From Phialocephala subalpina (taxonomy: Eukaryota > Ascomycota > Leotiomycetes > Helotiales > Mollisiaceae): 64,000 nt of DNA. Of this stretch, positions 3,001 through 53,914 are shown one piece after another (position 1 is the first letter of the stretch; each line of letters opens with the position of its first letter). Where the stretch lies: NCBI GenBank assembly GCA_900073065.1, contig FJOG01000021.1, positions 751,528 through 815,527 on the forward strand, given 5' to 3'. The notes beneath the pieces were generated by a model that saw only the letters and a program-made list of their open reading frames with translations, made no database searches and had not been told where the DNA came from. A program made the translations under genes and the position numbers.

Positions 3001-4100
3001 ACTATTATACTCAAAGAAAACGTATAAACGAAACCTGCGGAAATTCGATTTCAAAATTTCGAATTATATATTTATCGATTTAATACGTTTATATATCGCT
3101 TTTATAATACTTTTTTAATTAATTCGAGTCTTCGAATATTTCTTCCGATTAATTTAATCTTTATTAGTACAAATAATAAAATTTATAGAGACACGATATA
3201 TATAAATCTTAAAGAGGCTTATAATATACTTCGAATCCCTTCTCGACGTAATTTCTTTTAATAGACTCCCAACGATAAATCGTTCTTTAGCAATATTTAA
3301 CTTAAAAGAATTAATGTAATCTTCGATATAATTCGCTATACTAAGCCCTTAAATCACCTTATTATCCGATTCGAGATATTTCAATAATTAAACTATAATA
3401 ATACTTTTACGGACCGATATTTGCTTATTTAATAACGCGAGCAAACTATTAAACAAATTAAATAAACTCTTTAGTATTTTAAAATAAAAAAGAAAAAAAT
3501 ATTCCTTAGTAATAAGTTTTTCTACAAATGTATAAGCGAGAAATTGAAAATGCTTATAAAAGACGATCGGGAGTATTTAATTATCTTTAACGATAAAAAC
3601 GAACCCGAGATTTATTTACTTCCTTTTCCTCTTTTATTAGATTTTAAAAAGAAAAACAAAAAGATTTTAAACGAGATTACGTTTAAATAAATATTACGCG
3701 AAGCCTTTAATATCCTTAATAATAATACGTTTAAATTATTATAAGTTTATAATTTAAGAAATACAATCGAAGAATTAGTAAATAGTTTTAGTATTTATTG
3801 TGATATATTTATATATAATTAACTTCTCTTCTTTTCTTCTTTTAAAACTCGAAACGAATTTAATATATAAAGGGACGATTATAATAAAGCGATTTATTCT
3901 ACTTTAAAAATCCCTATTTATAATAATAATTTCGGAGATTTATATTAATTATATATCCTTTAGTATATAAAGAGCTTTTTATTCTCTAAAAAACAAAAAG
4001 AACTTTCTATTATTCCATTTTACTGGCCTTACTACGTATAACGAATAATTATAAGAGCGAAGTTAAATATTTACCAAAGTTTATAAGTTTATTATAATTA
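1..4100. repeat. AT-rich RIP-degraded repeat block
   Basis: Very AT-rich DNA with stop codons in every frame. CpA and TpG are rare, while many remaining cytosines sit in CpG, as expected after CpA-to-TpA RIP mutation of repeats. No named family could be read here. A protein-like open stretch of about 68 codons lies on the plus strand near 3487-3690, rich in Lys, Ile, Leu and Asn, but it matches nothing I recognise and could be chance in such biased DNA. The block probably holds remnants of one or more transposons; the end of the pogo-type element that starts to its right may lie within it. Confidence 0.75.
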
Positions 4101-4114
4101 TATAAAATTGGGTG

Positions 4115-5013
4115 GTTTTCCTCTAAGAAAGCCATTACCCTTTTACAATATACTCTTTGAAATTATATTTATATGATTAAAACGCGCCGATATCAAGAGG
4201 TTATATAAAATGCGTAATATAAACAAGTAATTGAAATAATCGAATTCGATTATCTTAATAATAATTAATAAACTTTTGCGTAATATACGAGTTATACTTA
4301 TTAAATATTAATATCTTATATTGACTTTTTATTTGATTCTTCGTGAATTTATCGAAATACTTGAGCTATAAAAGAATTAATCGATCGTTTGTAAAATTAG
4401 AATTTGAACGTACGAAAAGGATATTATCGTTTATATCGTTTTGGAAGTATTTGCGGAGATAATATGCTCCTTTGAAAATGATTATAGCGGGGACGTAATA
4501 ATCTCCTATAGAAATGCATTCTATTATTATAACCAATTCCTTATTATCTGGGTTATTAACGTAAATACGCATTACGTTCGTAGGGATAATAACGATTCCT
4601 TTAATTATAATACCAATTTAATAGCCCGTTTTATCGAAGTTATAAATATCTTCGTTCAAAATAGCCTATTTGTCCTTGCACCTCTTAAAATCCTTAAAAT
4701 GGCATTCGATTTTTTCGCGATTATATGCTTTTAAACGTGCAATAAAAAGAAGTATTTTATGGAGTATTTTAAGTTATTCGTAATTGCGTGATAATTATCT
4801 TTTGATCTATCGTCGTAATACTATTTCTTCCTTTTTACTCTTTACTCGTAGAATCGAATTATATACCGCAATAGCGTTCTCGATATTAGTAAAACGTCCT
4901 ATATTATAATATATAAACAAATAATCTTTTAATATATTATCTTCAATTTATGCAAACTTTTTATTATATCCACCGCGAGTTAAAGAAGCTAATACTCCAT
5001 TTCTACGACAAAG
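4115..5013 (-). pseudogene. pogo/Fot1-type DDE transposase, main part (RIP-dead, split by gypsy)
   Basis: Minus-strand frame resembling fungal pogo/Tigger transposases. The DDE_1 core is readable: NPDNKELVIIIECIS, then IIIFKGAYYLRKYF, then SNFTNDRLI, and further on a degraded stretch equivalent to the conserved second catalytic region and the following PLDIGAF. Upstream is an N-terminal stretch containing HFKDFKRCKDKQ. Several in-frame stops are present, all compatible with C-to-T or G-to-A change. The first 41 codons lie at 11396-11518, on the far side of the gypsy element. Removing the gypsy element and one 5-bp target copy joins codon 41 (GTT) to codon 42 (CTT) in frame. The C-terminus fades out near 4115. 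Confidence 0.85.
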
Positions 5014-5018
5014 AACGC

Positions 5019-5364
5019 TATAACGGTTGGCTCGACCAACTAATTATAAGGTGGATAATATATGATAAGGATTAAATAATTCCAATGAAAAGTAACATTT
5101 AAACCTAATTACTAAGTATAGTATTAAAATACTATATTTAAGTTAAATACGAAGCTCTTATCTAAAAGAATCCTATCTACTTATATAGAATTTTCCTACT
5201 CTTAGAGTCTAGAATAATAGAGTCCTTAACTATTCAAGACTCCATCACTTAGGACTTTATCACGTGACTACTAAGTCCCGTATTCCTATGATCCTAGGGT
5301 CTATTGTAGGCGAGTTTACTCGCTTACTAAGTCTATAGTCCATTAGATTATGTGAGTCGTAATA
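5019..5364 (-). repeat. Gypsy 3' LTR
   Basis: 346 bp, the left copy; 3' LTR in the element's minus-strand orientation. It begins TATAACGGTT where the right copy has TGTAACGGTT, so the canonical TG end is RIP-mutated to TA. Both copies end in AATA, consistent with a mutated CA end. Confidence 0.95.
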
Positions 5365-6639
5365 TTATCCCTCTTCTAATTAGCGTAATCCCGACGTTTA
5401 AATCAAAGTAAAGAAATATTATTCTTATATTATAATTTTCCTTCTTTCCCGTTATCTTTTATCATATCGCTTATTGCATATAAGAAAAGAAAAGAAAGAT
5501 TAGCGTTCGCTTTGGGCATCGAGAAATTAAGGCGTTCGATTAAAATATATTTTCATTATAAGAATTACATCCGCCGATACTTTTTTAACAAGTTCGAATC
5601 GCTATATTACTCTAAATGCATTCGATTCAAACGATCTTGCGATTCCGCGGGCTATTTAAAAGTAGTAATCCGTAAACTCGTATATCGTTTTTTTTGTGGT
5701 TCTCGGTTTAAAAGAACCCCGGCGACTATTCCTAAATTTCCTTCAAATCTCGTATTGGATTTTTTTACTTTTTGGCTATTAGTTTTCGAGTTAAGCGTTT
5801 CCGAACTTGAGATAATCAACCTCTTTTTTTAGGCAAATCCGAGTTTTAACGGTGGAATACTTCAAACTTCTCAAGGCAATTAAGATTTTATTTAAGTTCT
5901 TATATATTCTTCGAATGTAAATACTTTTGCTATTTGATCAAATACTTAATTTGCCTTTTAACGTATTGGTAATCTAAGATATTCTTTATATCGTATTTAG
6001 CGTTTAAATTAACTAATTCGATTTTAATTTTTAAAGCTCGCGATACTTCTAATAGTACTAATTTAAAGAAAGATATATGAAATACCGAATATATATTCAT
6101 ATTATTAAATAAAGTAAACTCGTAATTAATTAGTCTTTTAACTTTTTTGATTTTATATAATCCAATTTTCTTGTGATTTAATTTATCGTTTAATCGTTTC
6201 GTTTTAATGTTCCGACGAATTAAATAAACTTTATCCTTTTTTTTAAGCGTAAATTCTATATTACGATACTTATTATAATATAGTATTAATTTAATAGCTA
6301 CAAACTGTATATTTTTTACAAGTCTTTCGCGTAAAAACTTTAATTTATCAATTTGAATTTTAGTATTCTATACTTTCGATTCTATTGAGTGCAATACTTA
6401 GTATACTTTAAATTTATATTTATAATTAGCGTAAAAAAGCGAGACTTTCGTACTTTTTATTATTGCGCTATTATACGCGAATTGCGCTAGTAATAAAAGT
6501 TCCATTTAATTGTTTTACTAGTAATTAACGTAATAATAGAAATATATTTCCATTATTTGATTTAATTGTTTTATTTATCTATTTATCTGAGAATAAAAAG
6601 CCGTTGAAAGTTTTTATTTGATTTTTAATAGTACGATTA

Positions 6640-6860
6640 AAGTAATCTAGAATTTCGAAGTAAAAAGTTTATCTCGATCTAAAATAATTTCATTTAATAC
6701 TTTATAATTAGTTATTACGATTCGTAAAAATATATAAATTAAATCTTTTATTATATATATTTCAAAGTATAAAACTATATATGCGTATTTCGTGAGTTTA
6801 TTCGTAATTACAAAAATAGCGTTATATTCGATATTCGATATTAATTCTCTCGAAAATAAT
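6640..6860 (-). pseudogene. Gypsy integrase core remnant
   Basis: The minus strand reads YNAIFVITNKLTKYAYIV and ends in LDRDKLF. These correspond to the Ty3/gypsy integrase segments around the first catalytic Asp (D.LTK) and the SDRD box, with substitutions expected from RIP. Its position downstream of the reverse transcriptase confirms gypsy rather than copia order. Confidence 0.85.
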
Positions 6861-7953
6861 AACTTTACTACGAAGTCTTAAGTAATAGACTTCTAAGCGC
6901 TTAAAAATATATTCGGTGACCGTATATTACTATAAAGAGTATACTTCGCGATTTTATTTCGAATATATATATCGTATTTATTAATAACCTCAATAGTTTT
7001 CCCTTTAAATCTCGAAATGTAAAAGTCTTTAAAGATCCGCTCCATAGTCTTCGTAATCCCTTAGTATCTATAAACTAAAAGTTTATATTGCGTTTTAATA
7101 AACTCTAATTAGAAATTCTTAAGAATATAAAGTTTCTTTTAAAACCGTAATATTTTAAATTCATTCGTAAAAAGTTTTATCGAGTATTATAAAATTATTT
7201 TTGCGATAAAATCTTTATCGTAATTTCCTTTGAAGTTATTAATAAGCGTTATATCGATTAATTTCGAAATAATAATAATTATTACTTTATTAAATATTAA
7301 GCCGCTTTCGATTTTTTTAAGTATCGCGTATAAAAATAATTTAACGTCGTTTTAATATTCCGTTTTCCGATTAAAAGTATTTGCTTTATTATTCTCCGAT
7401 TTTTTAATATATGAAATCTTAAAGTTATACGTAATTAACATTTCGATTTATTATATTTATCTTCGGATAAATTCTTTTATTATAATAAAAAATATTAAGT
7501 TTTTATAATTAGTATATATTTATATTTAATATTTCGATTTTTCTAAATAAATTCTCTATATTTAAAACGCTTTTATAATTATAAATAGCTTTTTATCGTA
7601 GATTTCGTAATTTAATTCGATTAGTAATATTTTGCGAGAGTAATATACGATTAATTACTATTTGCTTTACTTATTAAATTAATTAAATATTATATTAATT
7701 ACAAAATTTAATGCGTTTATTTCGATAATAATATGTTTATTTAAATCGAACGTAAAAAAGAATAATACTTCCGTAAAGCGTTATTTAAATTAATTAAAGG
7801 CGTATTAAACTTTATTTATTTATTTAAATATTTAGTTTTTTTCGTTAATTCCGTTAAAGGGATTATTACCGCAAAGTACTTTTATACGAAGCGTTAATAA
7901 AAGTTCGCAAATCCTAAAAAAGACTATACGTCTTTGATTATTTTAAGTGCTTA

Positions 7954-8530
7954 CTAATTAAGTATTATTGATACTTTCGTAGAATCTATCGATAAATTTC
8001 CGATTGAGATTATATAGTTTAAGAAGTCCGTTTTTTCCACATGGAATTCGCATTTCTTAAGTTTACAAACTAAGTTCGCATTTTTTAGAGTAGTTAATAC
8101 TATTTTAATATCGTTAATATGCTTAGTAAGCGTCTTAAAGTATACTAAGATATCGTTCAAATAATAAATAACCATGATATTTAAGAATAACCATAAGACG
8201 ATATTTATTATGCGTATATATATAGCGGGCGCATTAATCAAATTAAAGGGTATAATTAGATACTCGTAATGTTTATACCTTGTCCTAAACGTTATCTTCC
8301 ATTTTTCTCCCTCTTTTATTCGGATTAAATTATAAGTTCTACGCAAGTCTAATTTACTAAAGATTTTAACTTTTTAAAGTTTATCGCGTAACTCGTTTAC
8401 TAATGGCAACGAATATCGGTTTTTAATAATAATCTTATTAATTTTCCGATAATCGATATATAATCGTTTCGTTTTATTTTTCTTTAGTATAAATAATACC
8501 GAGCTCCTTATTAATAAAGCCGATAATCAT
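7954..8530 (-). pseudogene. Gypsy reverse transcriptase remnant
   Basis: From about 8520 leftward the minus strand reads RSSVLFILKKNKTKRL then YIDYRKINK, the conserved start of Ty3/gypsy reverse transcriptase. After a break, the open stretch 8346-7954 carries KWKITFRTRYKHYEYLIIPF and the catalytic box as YYLNDILVY. The family has YLDD there, so the first of the two aspartates is now Asn, a G-to-A change that would abolish catalysis. Part of the RIP-dead element at 5019-11395. Confidence 0.9.
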
Positions 8531-11049
8531 ATGAATCCTTTTATTATATTCTCGTCGATATATTCTTTAAACGTCTTTAAATCGTCTACCGATATTTAGT
8601 AAATAAATGAGTATAATAATTCCTTTCCGTCTTATAAGGGTATTTCGTAGTTTTATTACTTATATTTAAAGAATACCTCGATTTTTTTCTCGTCTTTAAA
8701 AAAGTTCAAAAACTCGTAATATTCTATTGGTATTTACTTTAATAATAAATCTTAAATATAGTATTTTAATTCTTTTGAGGAAATAGCGCAAACTTTTCTC
8801 TAGTTATTTATTCTTATTTCTATATACGAAATCTTACAAATTTGGCATTTATTAAATATAAACGTTTTTTTAATTTAATCGATCGTTAAATTATATCGTT
8901 TAATTTATAATATCCCGAGTATAAATAAGTAATTAATATTAATTATATCGAAGCTTATTTTTTCGGTGTATTCTCGTCGTATAAATATAATCTATAGTAT
9001 TATCTTTACGTCGATTTGTCCGGACTTTAAAGGGTTTCCATCGATCGTAATAATAAAATATAATCGCGATTTAATTATCGTGGCCTATTCGTTGTTTAGT
9101 ACTAATTGTTTTGATATATAATTGCTTATTACTCTCGAATCGATTATCGCTTTAATCTTATATATATTTATTTGTATAACGCAAAATAATTATCTAATAC
9201 TTCCATTAATAATATATACTTTTCTATATTATTATCTATTGAGTACATTTTCCTATCGGCGGTTTAATTCGTTAGCGTAAATAAATCGGAATACACGCTT
9301 TACACCGAGTAGTAGCTATATTGCTCGTTCGAAGGTTTCCTCGTAATATATAGAATTATTCTTAATATTTTATTATATTTTTCGATTCGCGCTTTCTGTG
9401 AATATTTCGTAGTATTATCCTACGATTAATTCGTGATTAAGTATAGGGAGAACATCGTTTAATATAAGTAATTATTACATGTAATAATTAGTATTATTAC
9501 GTTATTTCTATTTAATTCGTCGATGATTTTAGTATACGATTTCGTACGTTTAACCATATTTTAATCCCCTCGTATTCGATTAAAGCTTAATATACCGAGC
9601 TCCTCCGTCCAAGTTTTACTATTCACGAGTACAAGTTGCGATATTATCTTCTCGTTAATAAATATACTATTCTTATTTAATCCGTGGGTAATATTCTAAC
9701 CAAAAGTTTAATGTTATAAGAGACTTTAATAGTCTTTAATCGTCGTACTTTAGTAGTTTTTCGTCCTTTGACTTGGAGTTTTCCACAAATAGTTAATACT
9801 AATTAATTAAAGTTTTAATTCTATCGAATTGCTTTACTAAGTTATTTATGTTATCGTTTATTTTATCGATCCTTTGCTATTAATTATCCCTTAAGAATCT
9901 CGATTTTACCGCTCGCTTAATGAAGTTTACCGCTTGCTCTTTTTAGAACCTTTAAAAGTTTTTTTCGGGGATTAATCGAAACGTTCTTAAATCGTTTTCA
10001 AGTTCCGATCAAATGGCTTGCGAATCGTTTTATTATTCGTCCAATTTTTCGCCGTTATATAATACTCTTCTCGTGATTATATATATTTAGTGGGGTTCGT
10101 TATAATTTTCGCGTTTAATTGCGTTGATTTATTTCTTCGCACGTCCGTTTTATAGTTTAGTTTTTTTATATGAGTTGATTATATATCTCGAAAGGCTATA
10201 TTCGAAGTATAACTTTTTTTCGCGATATCAATTTATTTCGTCCTTAGAAAATTGTTTTTTCTTTCCTTTGAAAATAGCGTTAATTTCTATTAGTGAGTTA
10301 TAATAGCCTTAAGAGCTTAAGTTCTTTTTATTCTTATTATTTCCTCCTTTGAATTTATTAAAGTAATACTCCCTTTTTTTAAGCGCTCGCTCGTACAATT
10401 TATTATCGAAGTAAATAGCGTCGTTTATTATAATTTGTATCGAGTCGTACTTATCACGGCGTATTAATTCGTTTTTTACCGCGTCTTTTAATCCCTTATA
10501 AAATTAGATTATAAAGGCGTTTTCTCTTTAGCCCGTAATTCTATTTATATGCTATTAAAATTCCGCTACGTAAATTAATGCCGCTCCGGTTTAACGTAAG
10601 TTAAATAGTTTACATTCCGCGATTTTCTCTTTATTTACGTTCTTAAATACTTTAGTGATTTTTTCTTTAAATCCTTTAAACGTGCCGAAAATCTCTTTAA
10701 TTAAAAAGTCCCATTTCGTTATTTGCCCCTTGCAATCGAGATAATTTTATTAGCTCGTCTCGATTTAATCGAAGGCTACTCCGATCAAGTACCCCGTATA
10801 CTAAAGAACTTGTTCATTTTCCGTCCGGAATATATTCTCGTTGAATTTGATATAAAGTGCATATTGCATTAAATACACTCGTAATTTGCTTTTCGTACTA
10901 TCGAAAGTATTAAGCTCGCGACTTTTGATTTTCTTCGATATTTTTACAACGAGTTTTAGTGGAATAAACTTCGAAATACTTCTGGATAACGCTAAAACGG
11001 TAAATATAATGGAATACGTAGTTAGTATTACAAGAGATAATGCTCAAAG

Positions 11050-11395
11050 TGTAACGGTTAGCTCGATTAATTAATTATAAAGTGAGTAATATATAATAAG
11101 GACTAAGTGATTCTAATGAAAAGTAACGTTTAAGCCTAATTACTAAGTATAGTATGAAAATATTATATTTGAATTGAGTACGAAGCTCCTATCTAAAGGA
11201 ATCCTATTTACTTATATAGAATCTTCCTGCTTTTAAAGTCTAGAATAGTAGAATCTCTAACTGTTTAGGACTCCATTACTTGGGACTCCATTACGTGACC
11301 ACTAAGTCCCGTGTTCCCATGATCCTAGGGTCTATTGTAAGCGAGCTTACTCGCTTACTGAGCCTATGGTCCACTAGATCATGTGAGTCGTAATA
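11050..11395 (-). repeat. Gypsy 5' LTR
   Basis: 346 bp, the right copy, retaining the TG terminus (TGTAACGG). It aligns to 5019-5364 along its full length without gaps, with about 50 differences. Confidence 0.95.
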
Positions 11396-11518
11396 AACGC
11401 ATAGATAAAAAGCACGCGTTTAACGCGCAACTTTTACTACTTTTATCCCAGGATTTTTCCTTATTAATTCTAAAGTATTTTAAACCTTTTTCTCTTCGTA
11501 ATCTACTTTTGGAGGCAT
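11396..11518 (-). pseudogene. pogo/Fot1-type transposase, first 41 codons
   Basis: Reads from an ATG at 11518 down the minus strand, beginning MPPKVDYEEKKV, with two in-frame stops at codons 13 and 33 (TAA, both explicable as CAA to TAA). It is the N-terminal end of the transposase that continues at 5013 on the other side of the inserted retrotransposon. The presumed upstream part and terminal repeat of the DNA transposon lie at about 11519-11690; no matching left terminal repeat was found by eye. Confidence 0.8.
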
Positions 11519-11718
11519 TATAGTAATGGATAAATCAATTTGAAGTAAGAATAGTAATTTTTGAGGTCAAAAACTACGCATTACTAACTAACTACGCATT
11601 GCTATCCCTCGCCCGATTACGTAAGGAATCAGGGCGAGATGTGCCAACCGAGCGATTATATTAAATGAAAATATAATTTTTTTAATATAATTAAAAATTT
11701 TATAAAGAAATAAAAAGT

Positions 11719-11719
<1 letters not shown>

Positions 11720-11764
<45 letters not shown>
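11720..11764. repeat. (TAA)n microsatellite
   Basis: About 14 uninterrupted AAT/TAA units at the boundary between the AT-rich transposon block and normal-composition DNA. Confidence 0.95.
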
Positions 11765-11766
<2 letters not shown>

Positions 11767-11828
11767 TATTTGCTCTCCTTAATATCGCTAGCGATGCACC
11801 GTCGATAAACTTTTTACCGGATTACAAC

Positions 11829-12695
11829 ATGGCAATTGAGGAGACATATACAACAGTTGCCAGGCGAATCATTGCTTTAGAGGGCGATCTGGCGATTTTG
11901 GGCTTTGCAGACTATAAAGTTTGGGAGAAGAATCGAGTTCCATCTTGGGTTCCAGACTGAAGGATGAGTACTCAAGACGTCAGCCAAGCTTGTAGAATAC
12001 TCAATGGGAAGTACGCTGAGTTGGCTATTTCGAAAAGATTGGCCATATTTCGCAACTCTCAAATCAAAAGCCAGTATTCAGAATGATATCTCAAACAACC
12101 GGTTGTTGGGACTTAGCGGGCTTGGGCGGTATGAAGTGAAAACGACAGCAACACCATACGGCGGATCAGTTGACCTTGAATGGCTCATAGATCAATGGTA
12201 TGCACTAGCCAACGCGTGCCACCCGGATGGAATTTATCCGAAGAATGATGGAGACGTGGAATTGGCATTGTTGGTACCATTTGCGGGGACCTTTTCCCCT
12301 CTGTGCACAACAAAAGAATATCAGACAAATTCAAAACCAGGTTCTACCCAAGATCCTTCAAGAACGATACTACTAGAGAAGAGAAGTTGGTGGAAGTGTT
12401 TACCTTCCTTTGCCACTTTCATACCCGCAGGCAAATTTTTATTCGCGGCCAACAGGGTCTTTTTGGCGTAGGACCAGCAGAAACTGAGGTGGGAGATGTG
12501 GTCTGTCTCTTACTTGGAGACAGAGTTCCTTATGTCTTGAGGCCATTGGCAAACGGCAATTACCTTCTTATTGGTGAGTGTTATCTGCATGATATGATGG
12601 ATGGGTGGTTGATTATAGAGCTTCAAGCTAGGGCTGCAATGGCAAAAGGTGATAATAAATTGGCCCATCGGATATACAGAAATGTATTGAAGTAA
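11829..12695 (+). pseudogene. HET-domain protein, C-terminal remnant (truncated, frameshifted)
   Basis: The first block (11829-11960) reads MAIEETYTTVARRIIA and ends LPSWVPD-like as RVPSWVPD, then TGA. This is the segment that follows the HET domain in fungal heterokaryon-incompatibility proteins. The last block, in the same frame and open to 12695, reads RRQIFIRGQQGLFGVGPAE, TEVGDVVCLLLG, then VPYVLRP and LIGECYLHDMMDGW, the conserved C-terminal block of HET proteins. The middle is broken by stops and frame changes; the plus frame from 12004 covers part of it. The N-terminal HET domain that should lie upstream is replaced by the transposon block. HET proteins trigger cell death on non-self fusion; this copy cannot be functional. 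Confidence 0.85.
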
Positions 12696-16784: not shown

Positions 16785-17837
16785 TTAGACATCATGCTCC
16801 TTGGCCTTCGCTCTCTCGCTCGCGCCCTTAATCGCCGTACTCAAATCACCTACGGGAATCTGGAACGGGAAGTCCAAAGCCGCTAACATAATAGCAAAGA
16901 AGATCCACCATCCCGCCATACTCGTAACAAACGTAAACGCACCCGCCGCAATCTGCAACCGGCCCGCCAGTCTCGCAGCGCTCGCAGCAGCTTCACCGGT
17001 ACCACCAAGAGCATTCGCGGTTTGCCAGTAAGCTCCAGAGAGAAGAGCGAAAGCAATCACGAGCGTGAAGAAGATGACGACGAAGACGACGTTGGTGCGG
17101 AGAGAGCAGATTAGGTAGACGAAGCAGAGGACTCCCATGAAGACGAGGAAGAAGGCGAAGGATGATGTGAAGCCGACGGTTGAGAGGCCTGCGGCTTCGG
17201 GTTGACCAGCTGGAGCATATGAACCGTAGGCGTAGTAGAAAGGTTGGAGGGTTGAAGCGAAGGAGAGCCAGAAGGCGCCGAAGGAGGTGAAGACTACGAA
17301 GGGGAAGGTGTTGCCGAGGATGAATTCGAGGAAGCCGCCGAGAACCATGAGGAGACCACCAAAGAAGTAGTAGGATCCGCTGCGAATTTTTAGCATATTG
17401 ACGAGAAGAAAGGAAGCTGAGAGACTCACGTTCCAGCTGCGCCGTTACCGCCAGCACCTCGCCAGCCCATCAGGTCGCAAGACAAAGGTGAGAGGGAGAG
17501 CAAGAAACCGAGGAGGGCGCTAGGAATTGTTAGCAAAGCTCAAAAGCAGATGGGAAGAAACGTACACTGGAGTTGGGTTACCAAAGGTCTTTCGTAGATC
17601 ACCTTTGACAACATTTTGAGGAGAAAGGTATATCTTCTCGAAGAGCTCAGGGGAGATTGAAATGCTGCCCGCCGTTCGGATTCTCTTCAACGCCTCGCCA
17701 TGGTCCATGTTGGCATCGTGTAGATAGTGTGCTGAGCCTCCATTGCCATTGGTGTACCCATTACCGTTCGAGAAGTCCTTCTCTAGTGGGTCCCCATTCG
17801 CATTTGCGCGAGCTTGTGCATTGTATTCTGCCGCCAT
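16785..17837 (-). CDS. Gpr1/Fun34/YaaH (acetate transporter) family protein
   Basis: Three exons, 17837-17566, 17519-17430 and 17379-16785, with GT-AG introns (gtacgt, gtgagt donors), give 318 residues. The N-terminus is hydrophilic and rich in Asn and Gly (about residues 1-60). The family signature NPTPV lies at residues 87-91, followed by about six membrane segments and the motif GNTFPFVVFTSFGAFWLSF. Characterised relatives (yeast Ady2, Aspergillus AcpA) carry acetate or ammonium across the plasma membrane, and some members are regulators or sensors. NPxP is NPAPLGL in classic transporters; here it is followed by ALLGF. The length is usual for the family and the frame is clean. Substrate is inferred from family only. 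Confidence 0.93.
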
Positions 17838-29184: not shown

Positions 29185-30551
29185 CTATTGGTAGGTATAG
29201 CAAAACGGACCTTCAGTGGTGCTCATCAACTCTCTCATTGCGATGGAAGTGCCCGCCGCGTAGCCAAGGTTAATCAAAGTGTCTAGGGTGGTGTTCGCCG
29301 AGGGAGGATAGTTCAGAAAGGTGCCAGTACCAGAGATCGCGTTCTTGCGATTCGCAAGGTCTAGGTTTTGCCAGATCCACCATACACGATCGATCATGCT
29401 GTGATGAAGGTAGAAAGCAGGATCGCCAGGTGAAGTGAAGACATCCGCGCCCGGATCGCCAGCAATTGTGTAGTGTCCTCCGCCGTGAACTCCGATATTT
29501 CCCGAGCCTGGGACCCCCTGCATGACCATCTCGAAATCCCAGATGTCGTTGTTTTGGGTTATAAGGTTAAGGATAGCCGTGCAATTGGCATAGAGTTGGT
29601 TGATTGCTGTACCAATATCGCGTTTGAGGCAACGCGGGTTGTAGTCGAGACCGGTGCCTGTGAGGGAACCTCCGCCATTGAGGGGGAGCGATACGGGCCC
29701 AAGGTTGACAGTCATATTCCTAAACGGTCCTGAACTAACGCACCCACCTCCAGTTCCGGCAGGGAGATAAATGTCTGGGTATGTCCCGAGAGATAAGGTC
29801 AGGGGACCACGACCGGCAATATATTCGCCATTGCCTGACATGCTCGTAGCACTACCATCAAAAATTGGAGATGCGGTTGTGTTTGACGAAGACAGGCCCC
29901 AGTTCCAGTATCTATAGGATATTAGCCAAAACCAGACGAGGAATATTCTGGGAAGTCATACGGCTGTGTTCCAGTATATCCGCACTCATTTCTCAGAGCT
30001 TGCTCATAATTCCACGTAAAGTAGCGATGCCACGCAAGGAACGTCCCCTGGTAACAAAACCAGGTCAGCTAGAGACCAGATTAGGTTTGGGCATGAGGTA
30101 TGACTTACAGTATAGTGGATATTCAAAGTCTGGTTGATGTGCGTTCCGACAAAGTCATCATAACGTGACCTCACTCCTGGAATGAGACTGGTAGGGGTTA
30201 AAGCGGACTTGCTCTGAAGGCATAGAACGGCATTCGTATATGCGATTCTCTCCTTGGCGCTGAGAGTGCCCCTAATGTGATGTTTTAGTCAGCGTTTGTA
30301 GAGATCACGGATGTTAAAGAGGGTCTTAGGAGATTCAGTCCGCACCATTCTTTGCGCACCGAAATATTGTCCTTGGTGCATGTCGTGGTGCGCTTTGTGG
30401 TGGTGTTAGCCAAAGCAGCTAATGCGTTCTCCGAGGCCTCTTGCGACAATTGATCGAGGAGGGCAAGCGCGTTACTGTCATCATCGGGTGTGGGAGCAGC
30501 CAATGCGGCTGCTATTAGCATAGCAAATCTGACGGGCGTTAAGAGACGCAT
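29185..30551 (-). CDS. Secreted tyrosinase
   Basis: Four exons, 30551-30346, 30271-30109, 30047-29962 and 29911-29185, give 393 residues. It starts MRLLTPVRFAMLIAAALAAP, a signal peptide. Type-3 copper ligands are all visible: CuA His113, His121 and His130 (THINQT, NIHYT, FLAWHRYF), and CuB His294 and His298 (GVHGGGH) with the HH pair at 321-322 in YLHHSMIDRVWWIW. It also has SPIFDGS and MSGNGEY, typical of short secreted ascomycete tyrosinases of about 380-400 residues. The family oxidises mono- and o-diphenols to quinones; in fungi this serves melanin formation or secondary-metabolite tailoring. An upstream in-frame ATG (30593) would put the signal peptide internally and is less likely. Confidence 0.93.
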
Positions 30552-34784: not shown

Positions 34785-36560
34785 TGCACGATCGAGAGCA
34801 CAGGATCGCGGTGGCTCATTTGAAAACCTTTCAGTGGATCTTCGCTCCTTGTCACCTCGTTCGAGACAAGCCTTGGTCAAGCATGGTCGAGTGGCTAGAG
34901 GGCGCTGGGAGCATATACTGGATGACAGGGAAGGCTGGATCTGGGAAGCCGACCCTAATGAAATACATGTCTCAATCCGAGGACCAGGAAGCACTTAACT
35001 AGATGGGCTGGAAGTAGTCGATTCTACTGCTGGAATTCTGGAGGCCCGTTCCAGATGTCCAAGGAAGGAATGCTCCGGCCTATTCTGGGCGGCGCCCTAA
35101 CTCAAGTACCATCCCTTACTGCAGCAATATTTCCAGAGAGGTGGCAATGGTTTCGATTGCTAGGAGGCGATGTCAATTCTTGGACATTGCCTGAGTTGAT
35201 AAGTGCCTTTGAACTTCTACTTCAGCAAGCCAGCAACAAGCTCAAGATATGTCTGTTTATAGATGGACTAGACGATTTCGATGGTGACCACAGCGATCTC
35301 AACGATATTATTCGAGCCGCGGTACAGCACCCTTGTATCAAAGCATGCCTTGCGAGCCGACCATGGCCGGTATTTGAGGACGATTTCTCAACACATCCGA
35401 GTTTGATGCTCCAACATCTGACTTATTCAGACATCGTGGCATACTCCGAGGAAAAGCCGAGAAGCCACCCTGGATTTCTAGCGCTGCAAAGGCAGGAGCC
35501 CTATTACACCTCCTGTCTAATTGAGAGTATTGCCGTACAATCTGACGGTGTCTTTCTTTGGGTGTTTCTTGTCGTTCGATCTCTGATGGCGGGACTATCG
35601 AACAGTGATAGGATATCGGATTTGCAACGTCGGCTGGAGGATCTACCCTCGGACCTTGAGGATCTTTACCAGAAGATGTTCGATAGCATCGAGCCTTTCT
35701 ATGTTAGTGGTGCCTATCAACTGCTATCGCTTGCTCGAGACGGTCAAGGATCTCTGACGGCGCTGGCTTTGTCTTTTGCTGACGAAGAAGATGCCACTTT
35801 GGCAACCAAACGTGAAGTGATTCCAATAGAGGATGACGAGAAGCTCAACAGATATGAGAGTATCAAACGCCGCCTAAGCGGCTGCTGCAAAGGTTTCCTC
35901 GAAATTCCGTATTTGGCATGCTCTGGGGAAGATATGGTGAATGATATTCCGGCTCAAGATGAACCAGCGGTCGGCGTCATAGATGGCATAGAATCAACTG
36001 CACAGAATCCGCCGGACCCTGTCGGCCTGGCATCTTTGTGTCCTACTGGATCCATGGATCCATCTCTTCCAGATGAATCTGCCCATGAAGATCTCGAAGA
36101 TCGTTCTCTCACCCCGCCCAGCGACCCCGACCGTGGTATCCCGGGGTTGTTCGAGCAACTCGAGCAACTTTATGAGACGTCGGACTTCCGCCAAGGCCGT
36201 ATACCAGGTTTTTCAAGACCGTATGGGGGAGTAGGCACCGATCGTGGGGATAGGAAGCGACAACAAGATGATCCTTGGTTGGATTCACATGGAAGTACTC
36301 TGGCCTATAGACGTGCCAGACATACTTTGTCGACCAGGCTTCGTCGTCGTGAAGAACTGACTCTAGTGAACGAAAGCCTCCGGCCCATTCGAGACCTCAT
36401 AGATCCGGCTAGGATGGCTGTGGAAACAGAACATGATGCTGGAGAAAGCGGGGAAGATCCTATCGTTGAAATTATTACGTCGATAAGCACACATCCTGCA
36501 TATTCCGAGGTTGCTTACCTCCACTGCACCGCTCGAGATTTCTCCAGAGCCCACACGTTG
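34785..36560 (+). pseudogene. NACHT/STAND protein, N-terminal part (5'-truncated, frameshifted)
   Basis: Begins abruptly inside the conserved pre-NACHT segment (AHLKTFQWIF) with no N-terminal effector domain, directly after a foreign 73-bp fragment. Walker A is WMTGKAGSGKPT, with Pro replacing the usual Ser/Thr after the Lys. A one-base frameshift near 34998 separates it from RWAGSSRFYCWNSGG. The following open frame (to 36563) carries Walker B CLFIDGLDDFDG, ACLASRPWPVF and the NACHT C-terminal helices (DGVFLWVFLVVRSL, LPSDLEDLYQKMFDSI). The family are fungal NLR-like signalling ATPases linked to non-self recognition and cell death. A Tc1/mariner element interrupts it at 36561. The remainder is at 37897-39017. 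Confidence 0.85.
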
Positions 36561-36562
36561 TA

Positions 36563-37896
36563 AGAGTTGGGGCCACAGCTCGTGGACCCCCCTAAGCGAG
36601 AACATCAAAATGAGACCTCATTTTCCAAAAATCACCATTCCTCCAATTATTAATAGTATTTCTTGAAACTTGAACTACAGATTAATAAATAGTAGCTAAT
36701 CCCCTTACTTCAATTACATCCTCCAATTTACAAGTCAATCTCTCAGTATAGTGCCTGAAATCACGTGGGTCCACCTGATCCCAAAGCCTCTGAATCTCCC
36801 TATATAATGCCTCCTTAGAAGTTGGTACAAATGGAAGCTTCTTTAACTCCTCTTTCATCCACCTCCAAACCTTCTCAATAACGTTCAAATCAGGTGAAGA
36901 AGGGGGCTAATCAAAGCCTCGAATGCTATATTAAAGCTTGGCAAGTCTCGCATGCCCTTTATGGACCTTTGCCCCATCTTCCATGAAGATATACTCCGCT
37001 CTAAGCTCGTCAAATAGAGGGAAAACAATAGGTTGGAGTACTTGATCACGGTACGCCCGTGAATTGACTCCTTTGGCCTCTTCCTCTTTCTCTAAGAAGA
37101 CCAATGGAGACTTGTAATCCCAGCCAATTGCTCCCCAGATCATAACCGACACTCTTCCTGACCTATAAGTCGATCGAATACAGTCTGAACACCTCTTTTC
37201 ATCTACCCTTCGAGTCACCTATACCCTCCCATTCTTCCCTAACTCAAGGATGCACTCGTCGGACCATATAACTTTCCTCTAATCCCCTCCTCCTTCTCTC
37301 GAAGCTGCCCAATCAGATGTCCCCCACCATCGATACTTATAAGCAAAAGCAAGCCTCTTTTTAGCTTGGGCCCTTGAGATAAAGGGCCGAGGACAAGCTA
37401 TACACCGTCGGTAGCCTGCTTTACGGAGTTCTCGTCGAATAGTTCGAGCAGATGCTTGGATATTTAGGGCCCTTTTGACTTGCTCAAAAGTCATGCGTCT
37501 TATGCCGTAGTTTCGAGAGATAAAGCGAATAATTTGGCGAATATCTCGTTGATTAAGAAGCTTCTTCTGATAAAGTTTCCCTTTTCTCGTGGTACGGCTG
37601 GATTTGGCTTTGCACATGCGCTTTGCAGTGCTTCGAGGGACCCTTATCTCTTCAAAGATCTATTTCCATGATTTACCGTCGGCGCGCGCTTGGCGTACTC
37701 TAGCGCGTTTCGGGGTTTTCCAAACTTGATTAGGCTCATAGATAGGAAAGGACGAGAGGATATCTGTCTGCATTTCGAGTTTGGTGAGGTTTGGATTAGT
37801 GGTTGAGTTGTGGCAAACGTTTAAAAAGGAGGGTGGGAAATTAAGGTGGGGAGCCAATCTCGCTTAGGGGGGTCCACGAGCTGTGGCCCCAACTCT
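36563..37896 (-). mobile_element. Tc1/mariner-type DNA transposon, 1334 bp
   Basis: Perfect inverted repeats of 39 bp lie at 36563-36601 and 37858-37896 (starting AGAGTTGGGGCC), flanked by TA at 36561-36562 and 37897-37898. One transposase gene occupies the minus strand. The intact, identical ends suggest a fairly recent insertion or one still mobilisable in trans, although its own transposase is dead. Confidence 0.95.
36682..37773 (-). pseudogene. Tc1/mariner transposase with five in-frame stops
   Basis: One continuous frame of 364 codons from ATG 37773 to TAA 36682, the usual length of the family. It is interrupted by stops at 37660, 37279, 37219, 36931 and 36907. Readable parts: two N-terminal helix-turn-helix regions (KRARVRQARADGKSWK and ISRNYGIRRMTFEQVKRAL), the first catalytic Asp in VIWSDECIL, the second in YIFMEDGAKVH, and PPSSPDLNVIEKVWRWMKE around the third acidic residue. 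All five stops can be explained by C-to-T on one or other strand, as in RIP, and no frameshift is seen. Confidence 0.93.
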
Positions 37897-46379: not shown

Positions 46380-46680
46380 TGTAATATTATATATACTATA
46401 GGACTATTAGAATTCCAAGATAATAACTTCTGTGGTAAATATTAATATATATTTAAATATTTATTATCTTATTAATTTGAAGGCTTTATTTATATTATTA
46501 TATATTTCAAAATTATATAATTTATTTATATTTTAAACGCAAAAATATAATTATTTATTTATAAAAAGTTTATTATTTTTAAGAAAATTCTTATTATTTT
46601 TATAATCTTATTATAATTGAAAAGTTTTACGGTTAATAGTTATTAATTAAGATTAGTAATAGGAAATAAAGATAAAACCG
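46380..46680. repeat. AT-rich islet 3
   Basis: About 300 bp of very AT-rich DNA resembling islets 1 and 2 in composition, between the permease pseudogene and the four-domain gene. No frame or repeat recognised. Confidence 0.7.
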
Positions 46681-46835
46681 CTTGTAATATCATTTTTACC
46701 CTAAGTTCTTACTCTAAGGGAAAGATGTTTATATCTACTAATATAAACGAGAAGGCAAAGGTTCGAAGTCGCCCGAATCATATATATCACAAGGCATTCC
46801 TATTACAAATCTACCAAGATTTTCTCCTTCCTTTC

Positions 46836-49800
46836 TTAAGTACCTCCAAAGACTAAAAGGCTTTGAATATTGACTCTGCCAAAGCCACGCCGGTGCAATA
46901 GTTCCCGGCCACGGTGAACAGGGAACTCGGCCACGGCCATAACGCTGATATCTTCAGCTCCGATGCCAGCTTCTTCTAATAGCCGTAGCACCGCATAAAG
47001 CGTCTCCCCCGTGGCAAGTACATCGTCCACCACCACTACTGACGCGTCTCTAGGAATCACATCCCGGTCCATCTCAATCCTCTTCTCTCTTGAATCGTTG
47101 GATACCGAAGACGAGATATGTGACGGGGACTTGATGACGGAAATAGTGGGAGGGGGGAGCTTGCCGGCTTCGCGAATCAGCGCTAAGGGTCTATCGACCC
47201 GCGCAGCCAACGCCGACGCATAGACAAAGCCGCCGGCCTCGCAACAAGCCACCACATCGACTTTGGCCCAGTCACCGGTGAAGTGAGTATGAAGCAGAGA
47301 TGTGCACAGGGCCAGCCCACCCGGCTGCTGGGAGATGTCGAGCACGTGGCGGAACTCGATGCCCGGGTGTGGAAAGTCGGGTACCGCGCGCACCATATTC
47401 GCCAGTCGCTGCAGGTTCTCGTGGAAGAAGGGAAGCAGGTAGCGTTCGGCAAGCCTTTTTGCCGCCTCGTTTCCGGTCGTGTCATTGTCGAAGATGAGAC
47501 TGGGGCGGTAGTCCAGCGCCGTCAAATTCGGCCTGCCATTGTAGCTGTCCTTGTTGTCCTTTTTATCGTCACCATCGTCATCGCCGCCGTGGCACCCTCG
47601 GCGAACCCGCCGCGTCTCTTTGCTAGCTTCGACGCGAATCTCGAACAGTCTGCTATCTGGCACCAAATGCGACAAGGCTGCGACCGGCGCCTCGTCTCTC
47701 ATCCCGGTGATTAGTAGCACGTCCACATCTGCGGCACCGTACACCACATTCAGAAAATGCTCCTCTGGCAGTCGAGGTCGTTGCTGTACCTGGCCCTGGA
47801 AAAATGTCGTCAACGTTGGCCGGTGTTGCTCCTTGTAGGTACGGTCACAAAGCAGGCGGTTTAGGTCGGCACCGGTAGCTGCCGCGTATTCTTGCTTGGT
47901 CGCATCGCTAATGCTGACTGCACGTGCCGTGAGGCTTTTGTGGGTGTATGAGGTGAACACGGAGACCCAAATGTCGGCGCAATAGTCCTTGCCGGCACAG
48001 CTTTCGCCTGTGACAAGAATGATGAGCTTTTGTTCCATCGGCGCTTTCGGGAGCGGGCAGGCGTAAGCCAGCACATTGCGCGGGTCCCAACTGTGTTTGA
48101 GTCGGGCCAGGCGCGGCCGGTTTGGTCCAAAAGCCCTGGCCGCTAGAGCACCGTCTCTAGGGTCCGGCCCGAGGTCGGCGCCGTAAGCTCCGCTACTTAA
48201 GGGCAACAAGGCCCTGGCAACATTGTAAACCCATCGCACGGCAGCTCGAGCAACTTCGGTTCCATCTTGGTCGCGGGGCCAGACACCAGTCACCACGCAG
48301 GCAAAGTCCCAGTCTCGACAGCCGAAAGCAGTGGCATCGGCCGCCACGTCGCCCATTGCTCCGCCACCTTGCAGCAGATGGAGATAGCAGAGTGGGCCGG
48401 GGCGAGTCTCAACGGCTGCCACCAAGATGTCGGCGAAGTTCACTGCTCCGATGCGTTTTAAGAATAAACATCGCTTAAACGAGGAGGTCTTGCCGCCGCC
48501 GTGCCCGCCGTGCATCCCGGACATGTACATCTCGGTCTCAAACAAACCGACTCCATCCACGACCTTGAAATTGTCTTCCGGCCCCAAAATTGTACTTATA
48601 GGCGTGGGCGGAGGCGTGGGCGTCTCAAAGGTGGGCCTAGCCGTGGAAGATTCAAACATAGTCACGCCAAGATGCAGCTGGTCGGTGTCCCAGTACAGAT
48701 ACGCGTCTGCAGAGCAGTTCCGGGGGAGCTTCCTAGCAACAAATTCATCAAAATCGCTAAGCTTTAGCCGCGCCTCGAGGTTGTCGCTTAGCGGGACAAC
48801 CCAGTTTCGAATGGAATAGGTCAGAGCAGTATAAGCCTTGAAAGTAACGCTGACCACGATGCCAAAGTTGGTCCCGGCGCCTTTTACCGCCCATAACAGA
48901 TCGTTTTCGTTTTCTGGGCGCACGGCGCCTGCCGGCTGGTGTTGGCTGGGTACACGGCCGACGCAGAGGACCTGGCTGGAATCGACGCTAACCACCACGG
49001 CACCGACGATAGCGTCGCACGCGAGCCCGTGTAGCCTAGCCAGGTGCCCGATGCCGCCTTGTAGCCACAGCCCCGCGCCTACGCTGGGGCGGGCCCCAAG
49101 GGGCACTGTCACGCCCGCCGCCATGGCCTTGCGGATGATATCTCCCGTCTTGCAGCCGGCCTCGACGACGACCAAGGAACCAGAATCGGAACCAAGTTTT
49201 CTTCCCTCCTCCCCGGCCGTGAGAATGTGTACTTGGTCAAAGGCGCCCATGTCGACCGAGACGACGTTGGGCCAAAGACAGTGGCCACTGTGGCCCCCGC
49301 CGATGACAGTCAAGCCGACCCTGTGCTTCAAAGCCCAGCGAACGCACTGTTGGATGTGTCGGACCTCTGTTGGCCTAATAACAGAGGCGGGACGATGGAG
49401 GCGAGCCTCCCGGTTTTTAACCGTCATGTCCCCCTTCACTAATGGTACCTGCGCCGTCAACTCCGGCAACGTGGTCGCATGTTGGGTAAAGGCCATCATG
49501 ACGTTGGGTGAGCTAAAGAAAAGATAGTCTGGGTGGGCTTCCTCACGACGGCCCAAGGCGCGGCACACCTTACGCCACTCGGCTCGGATAGCCTTGTCCA
49601 CGTCCACATCCTGCATGACAAACCCCGCGATGAAAGGAGCAAAACAGTCCAGTACCTCGTCGTCATTTGCCACGCAAGTGACTCCGGTAGGGAAACAAGC
49701 TGTTCGATAGCACATTAAGCCGTCGAGGTGCAGGGTGTCACGATGGAAAACCACCACCATTCCGCCTTCTGGCCGCTCAACAAGCATTTCCAGCGCCCGT

Positions 49801-50333
49801 TCGATGAACCTGTGTTTGGGCTTCATGCCGTACATGCTGTGGCAGAACAGGATGACGTCGAATTTTTCGTCGCCATCACTCGTGCCGGTGCCGATGCCGC
49901 TCCCTGTGTTGCTGTCCAGAACAAAGGGGATTCGAAGGATGTCGGGCGGGCTCTCCAGGCAAGGTAGCGGAGACTCCGTCTCCGAGGTAGAGCAAAACCA
50001 TTCTTCCAACCTTGTAGCAAACAAGCCGTTAGGCTCAAATGCAGTGTATCTCCTGATCTTCCGTCTCAGACGGCTGGGCAGATATCCAAATACGCTCTTC
50101 GGGCCAGGTCCAATTTCTAGCACCGAGATATGAATACGCGAGTTGAAGAGAGGGGCTAGCAGATGAGATAGTTGAGGGATAATGAAGTCTTGGTACGTTA
50201 TCCATCCTGAACCCCGCACTAAATTGTCGAAACCAGCGCTATACTGTATATCGGACAACGGCTGCTTCGGGGACGACGTCGTTGCCGTGACTTTCTGCCT
50301 AAGATCCTGCTTTAGGGAGTCGAGAGTGGCCAT
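46836..50333 (-). CDS. Four-domain fusion: methyltransferase + FAD oxidase + PMVK-like kinase + phosphoribosyltransferase
   Basis: One uninterrupted 1165-codon frame without introns. Residues about 1-290: class I SAM methyltransferase (VLEIGPGP 71-78, FEPN 99-102, FDVILFCHSMYGM 158-170). About 310-765: PCMH-type FAD oxidase of the berberine-bridge family (IGGGHSGHC near 344-352, PSVGAGLWLQGGIGH 416-430, C-terminal LKHSWDPRNVLAY). About 768-970: P-loop kinase with Walker A GESCAGKD (776-783) and a body resembling animal-type phosphomevalonate kinase (LNRLLCDRTYKEQHR 824-838, LLITGMRDEAPVAAL). About 975-1165: adenine-phosphoribosyltransferase-like domain (VPDFPHPGIEFRHVL, EAGGFVYASAL, PRPP loop VVVVDDVLATGET 1099-1111). 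A Gly/Asp/Lys-rich insert lies near 914-930. No signal peptide; probably cytosolic. The gene is visibly GC-richer than its flanks, suggesting a different history. A nucleotide-tailoring role is inferred; the substrate is unknown. Confidence 0.9.
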   Translation of the reverse strand: MATLDSLKQDLRQKVTATTSSPKQPLSDIQYSAGFDNLVRGSGWITYQDFIIPQLSHLLAPLFNSRIHISVLEIGPGPKSVFGYLPSRLRRKIRRYTAFEPNGLFATRLEEWFCSTSETESPLPCLESPPDILRIPFVLDSNTGSGIGTGTSDGDEKFDVILFCHSMYGMKPKHRFIERALEMLVERPEGGMVVVFHRDTLHLDGLMCYRTACFPTGVTCVANDDEVLDCFAPFIAGFVMQDVDVDKAIRAEWRKVCRALGRREEAHPDYLFFSSPNVMMAFTQHATTLPELTAQVPLVKGDMTVKNREARLHRPASVIRPTEVRHIQQCVRWALKHRVGLTVIGGGHSGHCLWPNVVSVDMGAFDQVHILTAGEEGRKLGSDSGSLVVVEAGCKTGDIIRKAMAAGVTVPLGARPSVGAGLWLQGGIGHLARLHGLACDAIVGAVVVSVDSSQVLCVGRVPSQHQPAGAVRPENENDLLWAVKGAGTNFGIVVSVTFKAYTALTYSIRNWVVPLSDNLEARLKLSDFDEFVARKLPRNCSADAYLYWDTDQLHLGVTMFESSTARPTFETPTPPPTPISTILGPEDNFKVVDGVGLFETEMYMSGMHGGHGGGKTSSFKRCLFLKRIGAVNFADILVAAVETRPGPLCYLHLLQGGGAMGDVAADATAFGCRDWDFACVVTGVWPRDQDGTEVARAAVRWVYNVARALLPLSSGAYGADLGPDPRDGALAARAFGPNRPRLARLKHSWDPRNVLAYACPLPKAPMEQKLIILVTGESCAGKDYCADIWVSVFTSYTHKSLTARAVSISDATKQEYAAATGADLNRLLCDRTYKEQHRPTLTTFFQGQVQQRPRLPEEHFLNVVYGAADVDVLLITGMRDEAPVAALSHLVPDSRLFEIRVEASKETRRVRRGCHGGDDDGDDKKDNKDSYNGRPNLTALDYRPSLIFDNDTTGNEAAKRLAERYLLPFFHENLQRLANMVRAVPDFPHPGIEFRHVLDISQQPGGLALCTSLLHTHFTGDWAKVDVVACCEAGGFVYASALAARVDRPLALIREAGKLPPPTISVIKSPSHISSSVSNDSREKRIEMDRDVIPRDASVVVVDDVLATGETLYAVLRLLEEAGIGAEDISVMAVAEFPVHRGRELLHRRGFGRVNIQSLLVFGGT

Positions 50334-51477: not shown

Positions 51478-52122
51478 TTACGATCCTCCCATCTCCTTCC
51501 TATACTGCCCCCTCAACTTAGTATCCCACTCACCACCACTCACCAGTCTCCTAGCAGCCTTCTCACCCTCCCTAATCCTACACACCCACCCCCTAAACTT
51601 CAACCCATAAAATGGCACCAAAGCTTGGACCTGACTCCAATCCGTCACCGGACTCATGAACACGACCTCGATCCCTTTGATACCCTTCACCGGCCACTGT
51701 CTAATAATCCCAACGGCACTCTTCACGACTTCGCGTTGAGTGAGCTTCAAACTCAGACTTTGAGTACGATAGCTAGGGTAGATGAGAGTGATGTGGAGTT
51801 TAGAGCTGAGGGTCAGGTATTGTGGGAGCGTAGTAAGAAGGGAGGTGCGCCAATCTGCGAATGCTGGGGAGAGGTAGTATGAGGATGGAGGTGTGAAGTC
51901 GAGGGTTGTGGAGAGGGTGGTTCCGGTGGCGCTGAGTGCGGGGTGGGAGGGCATGGCGGCGAGGCGCTCGTCGGGTGTTTGGTAAGTTGACTTTTGAACT
52001 TCGGGTGAGACTGAAAGGGTTGCCGCAGTACATTTGGGTGAAGATGTTGCCAAGGAGGCCGTGTCTGCCGGCTCTGAGCTTTCGTCATCTTTAGCGATCA
52101 TGTCAAACTTCGACGAAGACAT
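51478..52122 (-). CDS. Unrecognised protein, family A member 1
   Basis: A single exon of 214 residues starting MSSSKFDMIAKDDESSEPAD. The N-terminus is Ser/Thr-rich and low in structure (about 1-60); the rest is compact, mixed alpha/beta. It is a paralogue of the plus-strand gene at 53312. Shared blocks include DERLAAMPSHPAL / EQHVASMPACSAL, WSQVQALVPFYGL / WKQVKLLMPLYGL, and GGEWDTKLRGQ / GGSWDLRLLAL. No known domain, signal or membrane segment. The two genes are divergent and share a 1.2-kb intergenic region. A 73-bp piece of its 3' end is duplicated at 34712-34784. Confidence 0.75.
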   Translation of the reverse strand: MSSSKFDMIAKDDESSEPADTASLATSSPKCTAATLSVSPEVQKSTYQTPDERLAAMPSHPALSATGTTLSTTLDFTPPSSYYLSPAFADWRTSLLTTLPQYLTLSSKLHITLIYPSYRTQSLSLKLTQREVVKSAVGIIRQWPVKGIKGIEVVFMSPVTDWSQVQALVPFYGLKFRGWVCRIREGEKAARRLVSGGEWDTKLRGQYRKEMGGS

Positions 52123-53311: not shown

Positions 53312-53914
53312 ATGTCATCCACCAAAATAACCGGATCCTACAAACGCAACTTCCCCGCTCTGGCACAGGCCGTCAAGACCCAAACGACCAAGACGGTACC
53401 AGTCCCAGGCAAGACCTTGACTCCCGAACAACACGTAGCCAGCATGCCGGCATGCTCAGCCCTAGCATTCAACCCCACCACCTCCACTTTCACAACCACT
53501 CTCTCCCACCTCGACCTCCTGTCTCCCAAGAGTAGCACTACCCGAACTCAGCTCCGCCGCTCCTTCTTCTCCAATCTCTCCATCTACGCAAAACACTCAT
53601 CTCTCATCACCGCCATCCATCTTGTCATCCAATGCCCGAAACCCACCAAAGCAGACGCCAGTCTCATCAGAAGCGTGGTCAAGGAAATGGACAAGTTCAA
53701 GAACCTTGACAAGATGACGGTGTTGCGGAAGACGAAGACAGTGGACTGGAAGCAAGTGAAACTACTCATGCCGCTGTATGGACTCTCATACACGGAGTGG
53801 ACGGTGGAGATTGAGGAGAGCGAGAGAAGTGAACGATACGAAATGAGGGAAGGTGGATCCTGGGACTTGAGACTTTTAGCGCTCAGGTCCAAACTGGGGC
53901 TGAAGGGTATTTAA
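53312..53914 (+). CDS. Unrecognised protein, family A member 2
   Basis: A single exon of 200 residues starting MSSTKITGSYKRNFPALAQA. Paralogue of the minus-strand gene at 51478-52122. The conserved core includes a MPACSAL block near residue 50, a central beta-like segment (ITAIHLVIQCPKP), and the C-terminal VDWKQVKLLMPLYGLSY and GGSWDLRLLALRSKLGL. Basic N-terminus, no membrane segment. The repeated hydrophobic/WDxxL C-terminal block suggests a small folded domain. Function unknown. Confidence 0.75.
   Translation: MSSTKITGSYKRNFPALAQAVKTQTTKTVPVPGKTLTPEQHVASMPACSALAFNPTTSTFTTTLSHLDLLSPKSSTTRTQLRRSFFSNLSIYAKHSSLITAIHLVIQCPKPTKADASLIRSVVKEMDKFKNLDKMTVLRKTKTVDWKQVKLLMPLYGLSYTEWTVEIEESERSERYEMREGGSWDLRLLALRSKLGLKGI

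Follow-up and report, generated by a model that had tools for sequence, protein, structure and literature searches.

A 64,000-nucleotide stretch of the Phialocephala subalpina genome (contig FJOG01000021.1, positions 751,528 to 815,527; hereafter the window) carries on its minus strand one apparently intronless gene that joins four modules. The encoded enzyme is predicted to assemble a modified purine-like nucleotide and tailor it, and the gene has likely been transferred horizontally among fungi on many occasions. We hold this combined reading tentatively, at just short of an even chance. In the ORF (open reading frame) list of the window the gene spans 46836..50333, starts with ATG and encodes 1165 aa; the first base of an in-frame TAA lies 9 bases upstream of this start. 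A sequence-only reading had proposed a single intronless frame joining a methyltransferase, an oxidase, a kinase and a phosphoribosyltransferase (PRTase), in that order. The one 1165-codon open frame stands, and it suggests one gene whose transcript would lack introns; the order is correct, with Pfam placing the kinase, PRTase and oxidase and giving a sub-threshold match for the methyltransferase. The features referred to below are as follows.

46836..50333, minus strand: whole four-module protein plus stop, 1165 aa (single open frame; same-length homologs)
49434..50333, minus strand: S-adenosylmethionine (SAM) methyltransferase module, histamine-N-methyltransferase-like, residues 1-300
48039..49433, minus strand: flavin adenine dinucleotide (FAD) oxidase module, berberine-bridge/6-hydroxy-D-nicotine-oxidase-like, residues 301-765 (FAD_binding_4, BBE, sequence matches)
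47604..48038, minus strand: P-loop kinase, PF04275 phosphomevalonate-kinase-type, residues 766-910 (Pfam, weak PMVK alignment, invariant residues)
47985-48008, minus strand: kinase P-loop GESCAGKD
47499..47603, minus strand: acidic low-complexity linker, residues 911-945 (sequence, alignment, low predicted local distance difference test score, pLDDT)
46839..47420, minus strand: adenine-phosphoribosyltransferase-like module, residues 972-1165
47001-47039, minus strand: phosphoribosyl pyrophosphate (PRPP) motif of the PRTase module
46736..46835, strand not assigned: 3′ flank common to the gene and a dead fragment on contig C45 (nucleotide alignment)

The domain chain is far beyond chance. Of 7992 proteins scored in a search with the whole fusion, 1092 reached E <= 0.001, and the best 120 of these all carry the same three Pfam domains and match at 78–91% identity over 91–100% of the query. 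By these matches the fusion architecture is widespread in filamentous ascomycetes: 39 of the best 120 are organism-named and represent seven classes (Geoglossomycetes, Lecanoromycetes, Leotiomycetes, Sordariomycetes, Dothideomycetes, Eurotiomycetes and Orbiliomycetes). Class labels were assigned to these 39 rows, and 31 names covering all 30 genera were then looked up (Monosporascus via M. ibericus). Sarcosagium, which is incertae sedis, was left out of the resulting 38-sequence set and kept in the same-genus, clustering, Hyaloscypha/Leotiomycetes constraint and clade-mean analyses. Many homologs are single frames on metagenome contigs and, judging from these sources, were probably called without introns. 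One homolog (P0212) comes from a bacterial metagenome-assembled genome and was taken as contamination. A bacterial origin was considered and rejected, as none of 59 stretches of GTDB contigs was confirmed as a relative for the patterns used; so was a viral origin, as the 80 matches kept from 118 confirmed viral-contig matches are all confined to the PRTase part (residues 937-1162).

The modules keep their signature residues with great constancy. In an alignment of the query and 119 homologs (the 119 of the 120 listed matches that exceed 1100 aa), the four motifs quoted in the sequence-only reading are present and nearly invariant, which upholds its impression that the chain looks catalytically intact. 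The domain search that it had called for places both the kinase and the PRTase above curated cut-offs. At the C terminus, Pribosyltran covers residues 999-1123 (E 1.3e-18), and the module has the PRTase fold together with a PRPP motif in which D1104, G1109 and T1111 each occur in 120/120 sequences and D1103 in 119/120. The best matches of this module are by far ordinary APRTs, and it does not reach the APRT equivalog cut-offs (TIGR01090, 86.6 vs 185.85 bits; PRK02304.1-5, 102.9 vs 125). Because the whole-chain predicted structure has a mean pLDDT of 65, with values below 50 at residues 914-940 inside the linker, the PRTase part alone was taken from it for fold matching; human and Giardia APRT, among the best fold matches, share about 23–30% identity with the module. 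They also differ from it in that the module has Gly for the Arg of the APRT motif DSRGF (Gly1034, in 120/120), its flexible loop is longer, and it is fused to three other enzymes.

The kinase module belongs to P-mevalo_kinase (PF04275, residues 774-891, E 5.3e-21, 75.1 vs a cut-off of 33.8 bits), far under the PMVK equivalog (TIGR01223, 26 vs 188.15 bits), and it aligns weakly with the PMVK structures 7xnd (E 0.014) and 3ch4 (E 0.054). Like animal-type PMVK it has the GKD P-loop, with G776, G781, K782 and D783 each in 120/120. The two also share acceptor-side Lys and Arg positions: Lys813, Lys834, Arg838 and Arg879 are each invariant (120/120) and presumably correspond to Lys48, Lys69, Arg73 and Arg110 of human PMVK, numbers and roles that we assume here and matched by eye over an alignment covering part of the module. 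These four basic residues would fit a phosphate ester as acceptor. Unlike PMVK, which has a second Arg directly after the first, the module has Asp (116 of 120) or Glu (4 of 120) at residue 880.

The two N-terminal modules are assigned by different means. For the oxidase, an assignment based mainly on sequence, FAD_binding_4 (residues 315-452, E 4.1e-12, 46.4 vs 26.4 bits) and BBE (residues 732-757, E 1.3e-4, 22.3 vs 20.6 bits) both exceed their cut-offs, as in a berberine-bridge-like FAD oxidase, and sequence matches include 6-hydroxy-D-nicotine oxidase (5.1e-16) and EncM (about 1e-13). These enzymes and berberine bridge enzymes share with the module both domains and the GGGHS histidine, of the flavin-linking type (His348, in 119/120); they show about 16–22% identity in fold matches, and the module differs in being fused. 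Arg415 (120/120) occupies the column that we take to be the cysteinyl flavin-link site, so double His and Cys attachment is not indicated and at most one covalent flavin link is expected. For the methyltransferase, Methyltransf_23 matches residues 53-194 below the curated cut-off (E 0.0013, 18.9 vs 27 bits), and a sequence comparison with the PDB gave chance-level matches only (best E 0.46, to a carbonic anhydrase). The fold is that of histamine N-methyltransferase (HNMT), at 13–14% identity, and the motif I residues L72, E73, G75 and G77 are each in 120/120. Unlike HNMT, the module is fungal and fused.

Nucleotide chemistry is the most natural reading of this fusion, given the chemistry of the families and the conservation of their motifs. 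The PRTase-like module would couple a purine-like base to 5-phosphoribose from PRPP, and the kinase would add a second phosphate to the resulting phosphomonoester, the same chemistry as that of phosphomevalonate kinase. The FAD oxidase would oxidize a carbon–nitrogen or carbon–hydrogen bond and the HNMT-like module would N-methylate an amine, both acting on the base or a side chain. We infer the substrate, the order of the reactions, the product, and horizontal transfer as the cause of the evolutionary patterns described below. The interpretation in the sequence-only reading, which had likewise pointed to nucleotide chemistry, is partly supported; the wide distribution, the sub-equivalog scores of PRTase and kinase, and the signs of transfer and decay described below go beyond it. 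Its statement that it knew of no described pathway enzyme with this order agrees with our search of open-access full texts, which found no description of the four-module architecture.

Two features weigh against this chemistry. The PRTase module lacks the DSRGF Arg, which we take to bind pyrophosphate on the basis of assumed human APRT residue numbers and roles, and its flexible loop is changed as well as longer; it may therefore use another base or have an altered function. In the kinase, the acidic residue 880 stands in place of the second Arg of the RR pair of PMVK. The most interesting alternative mechanism is that the kinase makes a sugar donor, converting a sugar-1-phosphate into a diphosphate (a PRPP analogue) that the PRTase transfers to a base, with the oxidase and methyltransferase tailoring an unusual nucleoside, a parallel to angustmycin-type pathways. 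PMVK chemistry turns a monophosphate into exactly such a diphosphate, the departure from APRT at the DSRGF Arg would fit, and a phosphopsicosyltransferase (7f06, E 3.4e-4) is among the weaker structural-database matches of the PRTase module; with the PRPP motif intact and ordinary APRTs by far the best matches, we regard this mechanism as improbable. Scarcely less improbable is that the modules form no single pathway, either as an assortment of activities for salvage or detoxification or with the PRTase part as a PurR-like ligand sensor controlling the others, since the best 120 homologs align over nearly the whole query and near-invariance holds jointly for the motifs of all four. The fusion is also unlikely to be a housekeeping enzyme. 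Fungi use ERG8 at the mevalonate step, and the host has an ERG8-type frame (contig C111; three pieces of one 520-aa frame, none singly over the family cut-off) and two other APRT-like genes (C43 and C82; exon pieces, each under the equivalog cut-off), while no second PF04275 match was found in the host genome.

The same genome (68 Mb, 119 contigs) also holds dead copies. Searching the whole genome returned, besides the resident gene, a fragment on contig C45 (residues 1061-1165) and two small pieces on contig C53; the remaining matches are weak (27–44% identity), to ordinary oxidases and PRTases. The C45 fragment aligns with window positions 46736-47143 at 80% identity, including about 100 bases of 3′ flank. 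Compared with P0113, the copy of another organism, the fragment shows 94% identity; with the resident copy the figure is 75%, which places that copy at rank 134 of 237. Its mean identity is 0.854 to one clade of homologs (clade B) and 0.742 to another (clade A), while the resident copy shows 0.802 to clade A and 0.775 to clade B, and each of these clades holds several fungal classes. The pattern shown by these sequences is thus of two gene lineages in one genome, an intact copy and a dead fragment. Over 104 codons, nonsynonymous and synonymous divergence between resident copy and fragment are dN 0.126 and dS 0.577 (dS bootstrap 0.38–0.84); copies of the two clades are therefore unsaturated at synonymous sites, and a dN/dS ratio near 0.22 suggests that purifying selection acted in the past. 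A separate lineage is less clear for the C53 pieces, for which the resident copy ranks 7/132 and 50/133. Placed on the gene, these pieces (C53:58985-59097 and C53:91634-91762) meet at a single point, overlapping by 7 bases, yet on the contig ~32.5 kb separates them and their order is inverted, as though a circle had been cut at that point. Aspergillus cristatus has a shortened second copy that is about 17% different from its full one.

The tree of fusion homologs is star-like with long tips and fits the classes poorly. Mean identity among the 38 class-labelled sequences is 0.822 within classes (0.748–0.933) vs 0.798 between them (0.741–0.909), ten same-genus pairs show 0.77–0.92, overlapping the between-class range, and the copies of three Aspergillus species differ by 11–16%. 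Constrained trees rejected as clades the two Hyaloscypha copies (P = 0.000175), seven Leotiomycetes (P = 0.000266) and, in the 38-sequence set, ten Lecanoromycetes (P = 4.2e-9). On this sequence evidence the fusion gene has likely moved between fungal classes. Several observations speak against such movement. Nine Lecanoromycetes without Icmadophila are borderline as a clade (P = 0.051), and Sordariomycetes, Dothideomycetes, Hypoxylon and Xylographa were not rejected. On the tree, sequences of one class tend to group (12 changes of class label vs a shuffled mean of 23.9), and vertical descent therefore accounts for part of the history. The dS comparison presumes saturation of synonymous sites in ordinary genes when different classes are compared. 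Finally, no Starship captain was found on the gene's own contig (C35), where there is no DUF3435 match among at least 25 listed genome-wide. On C45, a single degraded DUF3435 match sits about 26 kb away from the dead fragment. The upstream flank of the fusion gene is single-copy in the genome except for one 49-base match, and an AT-rich stretch downstream resembles many AT-rich places. GC content at third codon positions (0.65) is within the range of 12 other window ORFs (0.45–0.68), so composition alone gives no mark of foreign origin.

Shortened relatives are common, and most look like broken fusions. A kinase–PRTase search returned 283 proteins, including relatives of about 400 residues; of the 120 listed, 49 begin within the oxidase or farther upstream, 38 at residues 740-771 and 33 beyond that point. 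In a tree of 103 rows, two-domain forms are scattered (29 changes vs a shuffled mean of 30.4) and longer shortened forms are clustered (24 vs 33.9, with 0/500 shuffles as low). The 18 full-length rows, hand-chosen and all from the closest matches, sit together in one part of 55 rows. Outside it are 48 rows, every one a shortened form (29 retaining oxidase sequence, 16 starting at residues 740-771 and 3 later), so for this diverged part descent from the fusion cannot be read from the tree. In three of the 27 starts printed (P0170, P0190 and P0194) the N terminus still resembles that of the complete fusion; it is followed by the kinase or, for P0194, by the oxidase end that precedes the kinase. 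Such starts and the oxidase remnants suggest breakage, and together with the scatter of two-domain forms they speak against an ancestral two-domain kinase–PRTase enzyme, which we rejected; the diverged sequences P0233-P0235 may represent a genuine two-domain enzyme. Part of the short forms is explained by errors in gene models and by contig ends. A methyltransferase-module search gave 173 matches; the 120 listed, at 41–91% identity, are read as pieces of the fusion.

An alternative without movement between species is that the fusion predates the class split, was duplicated into several lineages and then differentially lost. The clustering of class labels, the diverged copies in many genera (54–66% identity in the kinase–PRTase part) and the apparent frequency of decay all suit such ancient paralogues. 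We nonetheless consider them unlikely, though less so than either functional alternative: dS between copies from the two main clades is low, at 0.58, the divergence among the three Aspergillus species equals that of many between-class pairs, and two species of one Hyaloscypha complex are placed in different clades. Since the host genome combines an intact copy with dead remains of a second lineage, we can go further and picture a self-contained pathway gene that roams filamentous ascomycetes, repeatedly acquired by members of different classes, kept for a while with all four active sites, broken and sometimes reacquired, its product a new modified nucleotide whose benefit or selfish effect would account for the turnover. 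We offer this fuller scenario as a possibility, with somewhat less conviction than the combined reading set out at the start.

Several further observations concern the surroundings. A 16-base inverted repeat (94%; window 46650-46665 / 46797-46812) lies just downstream of the fusion gene, partly in the shared 3′ flank. Window positions 1-12000 are very AT-rich (GC 0.19–0.32), likely debris of repeat-induced mutation. Other window ORFs include a GPR1/FUN34/YaaH ORF (16785-17429, minus), a tyrosinase ORF (29185-29841, minus), a DUF7791 ORF (35055-36563, plus) with a sub-threshold Nephrocystin-3 N-terminal match, and two divergent ORFs (51478-52122, minus; 53312-53914, plus) that look paralogue-like by eye and have no Pfam match. 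Elsewhere, the homolog model P0109 (Aspergillus glaucus) opens with a GTP cyclohydrolase I stretch, and the host has GTP cyclohydrolase I loci at C53:17000-17585, on the contig with the dead pieces, and C14:451037-451618. We judged a link too weak, the C53 locus being about 41 kb from those pieces, and set aside P0181 as a third case because by eye it looks like an out-of-frame reading.

Each module comes from a known family, and public names such as “adenine phosphoribosyltransferase” on 1160-residue proteins hide their fusion. If the four modules work as one unit, the gene would be a single-gene route to a new nucleotide, simple to express. If it truly moves between classes, it would clearly exemplify a metabolic gene that is mobile without belonging to a cluster, and the turnover would raise the question of what selects for it.
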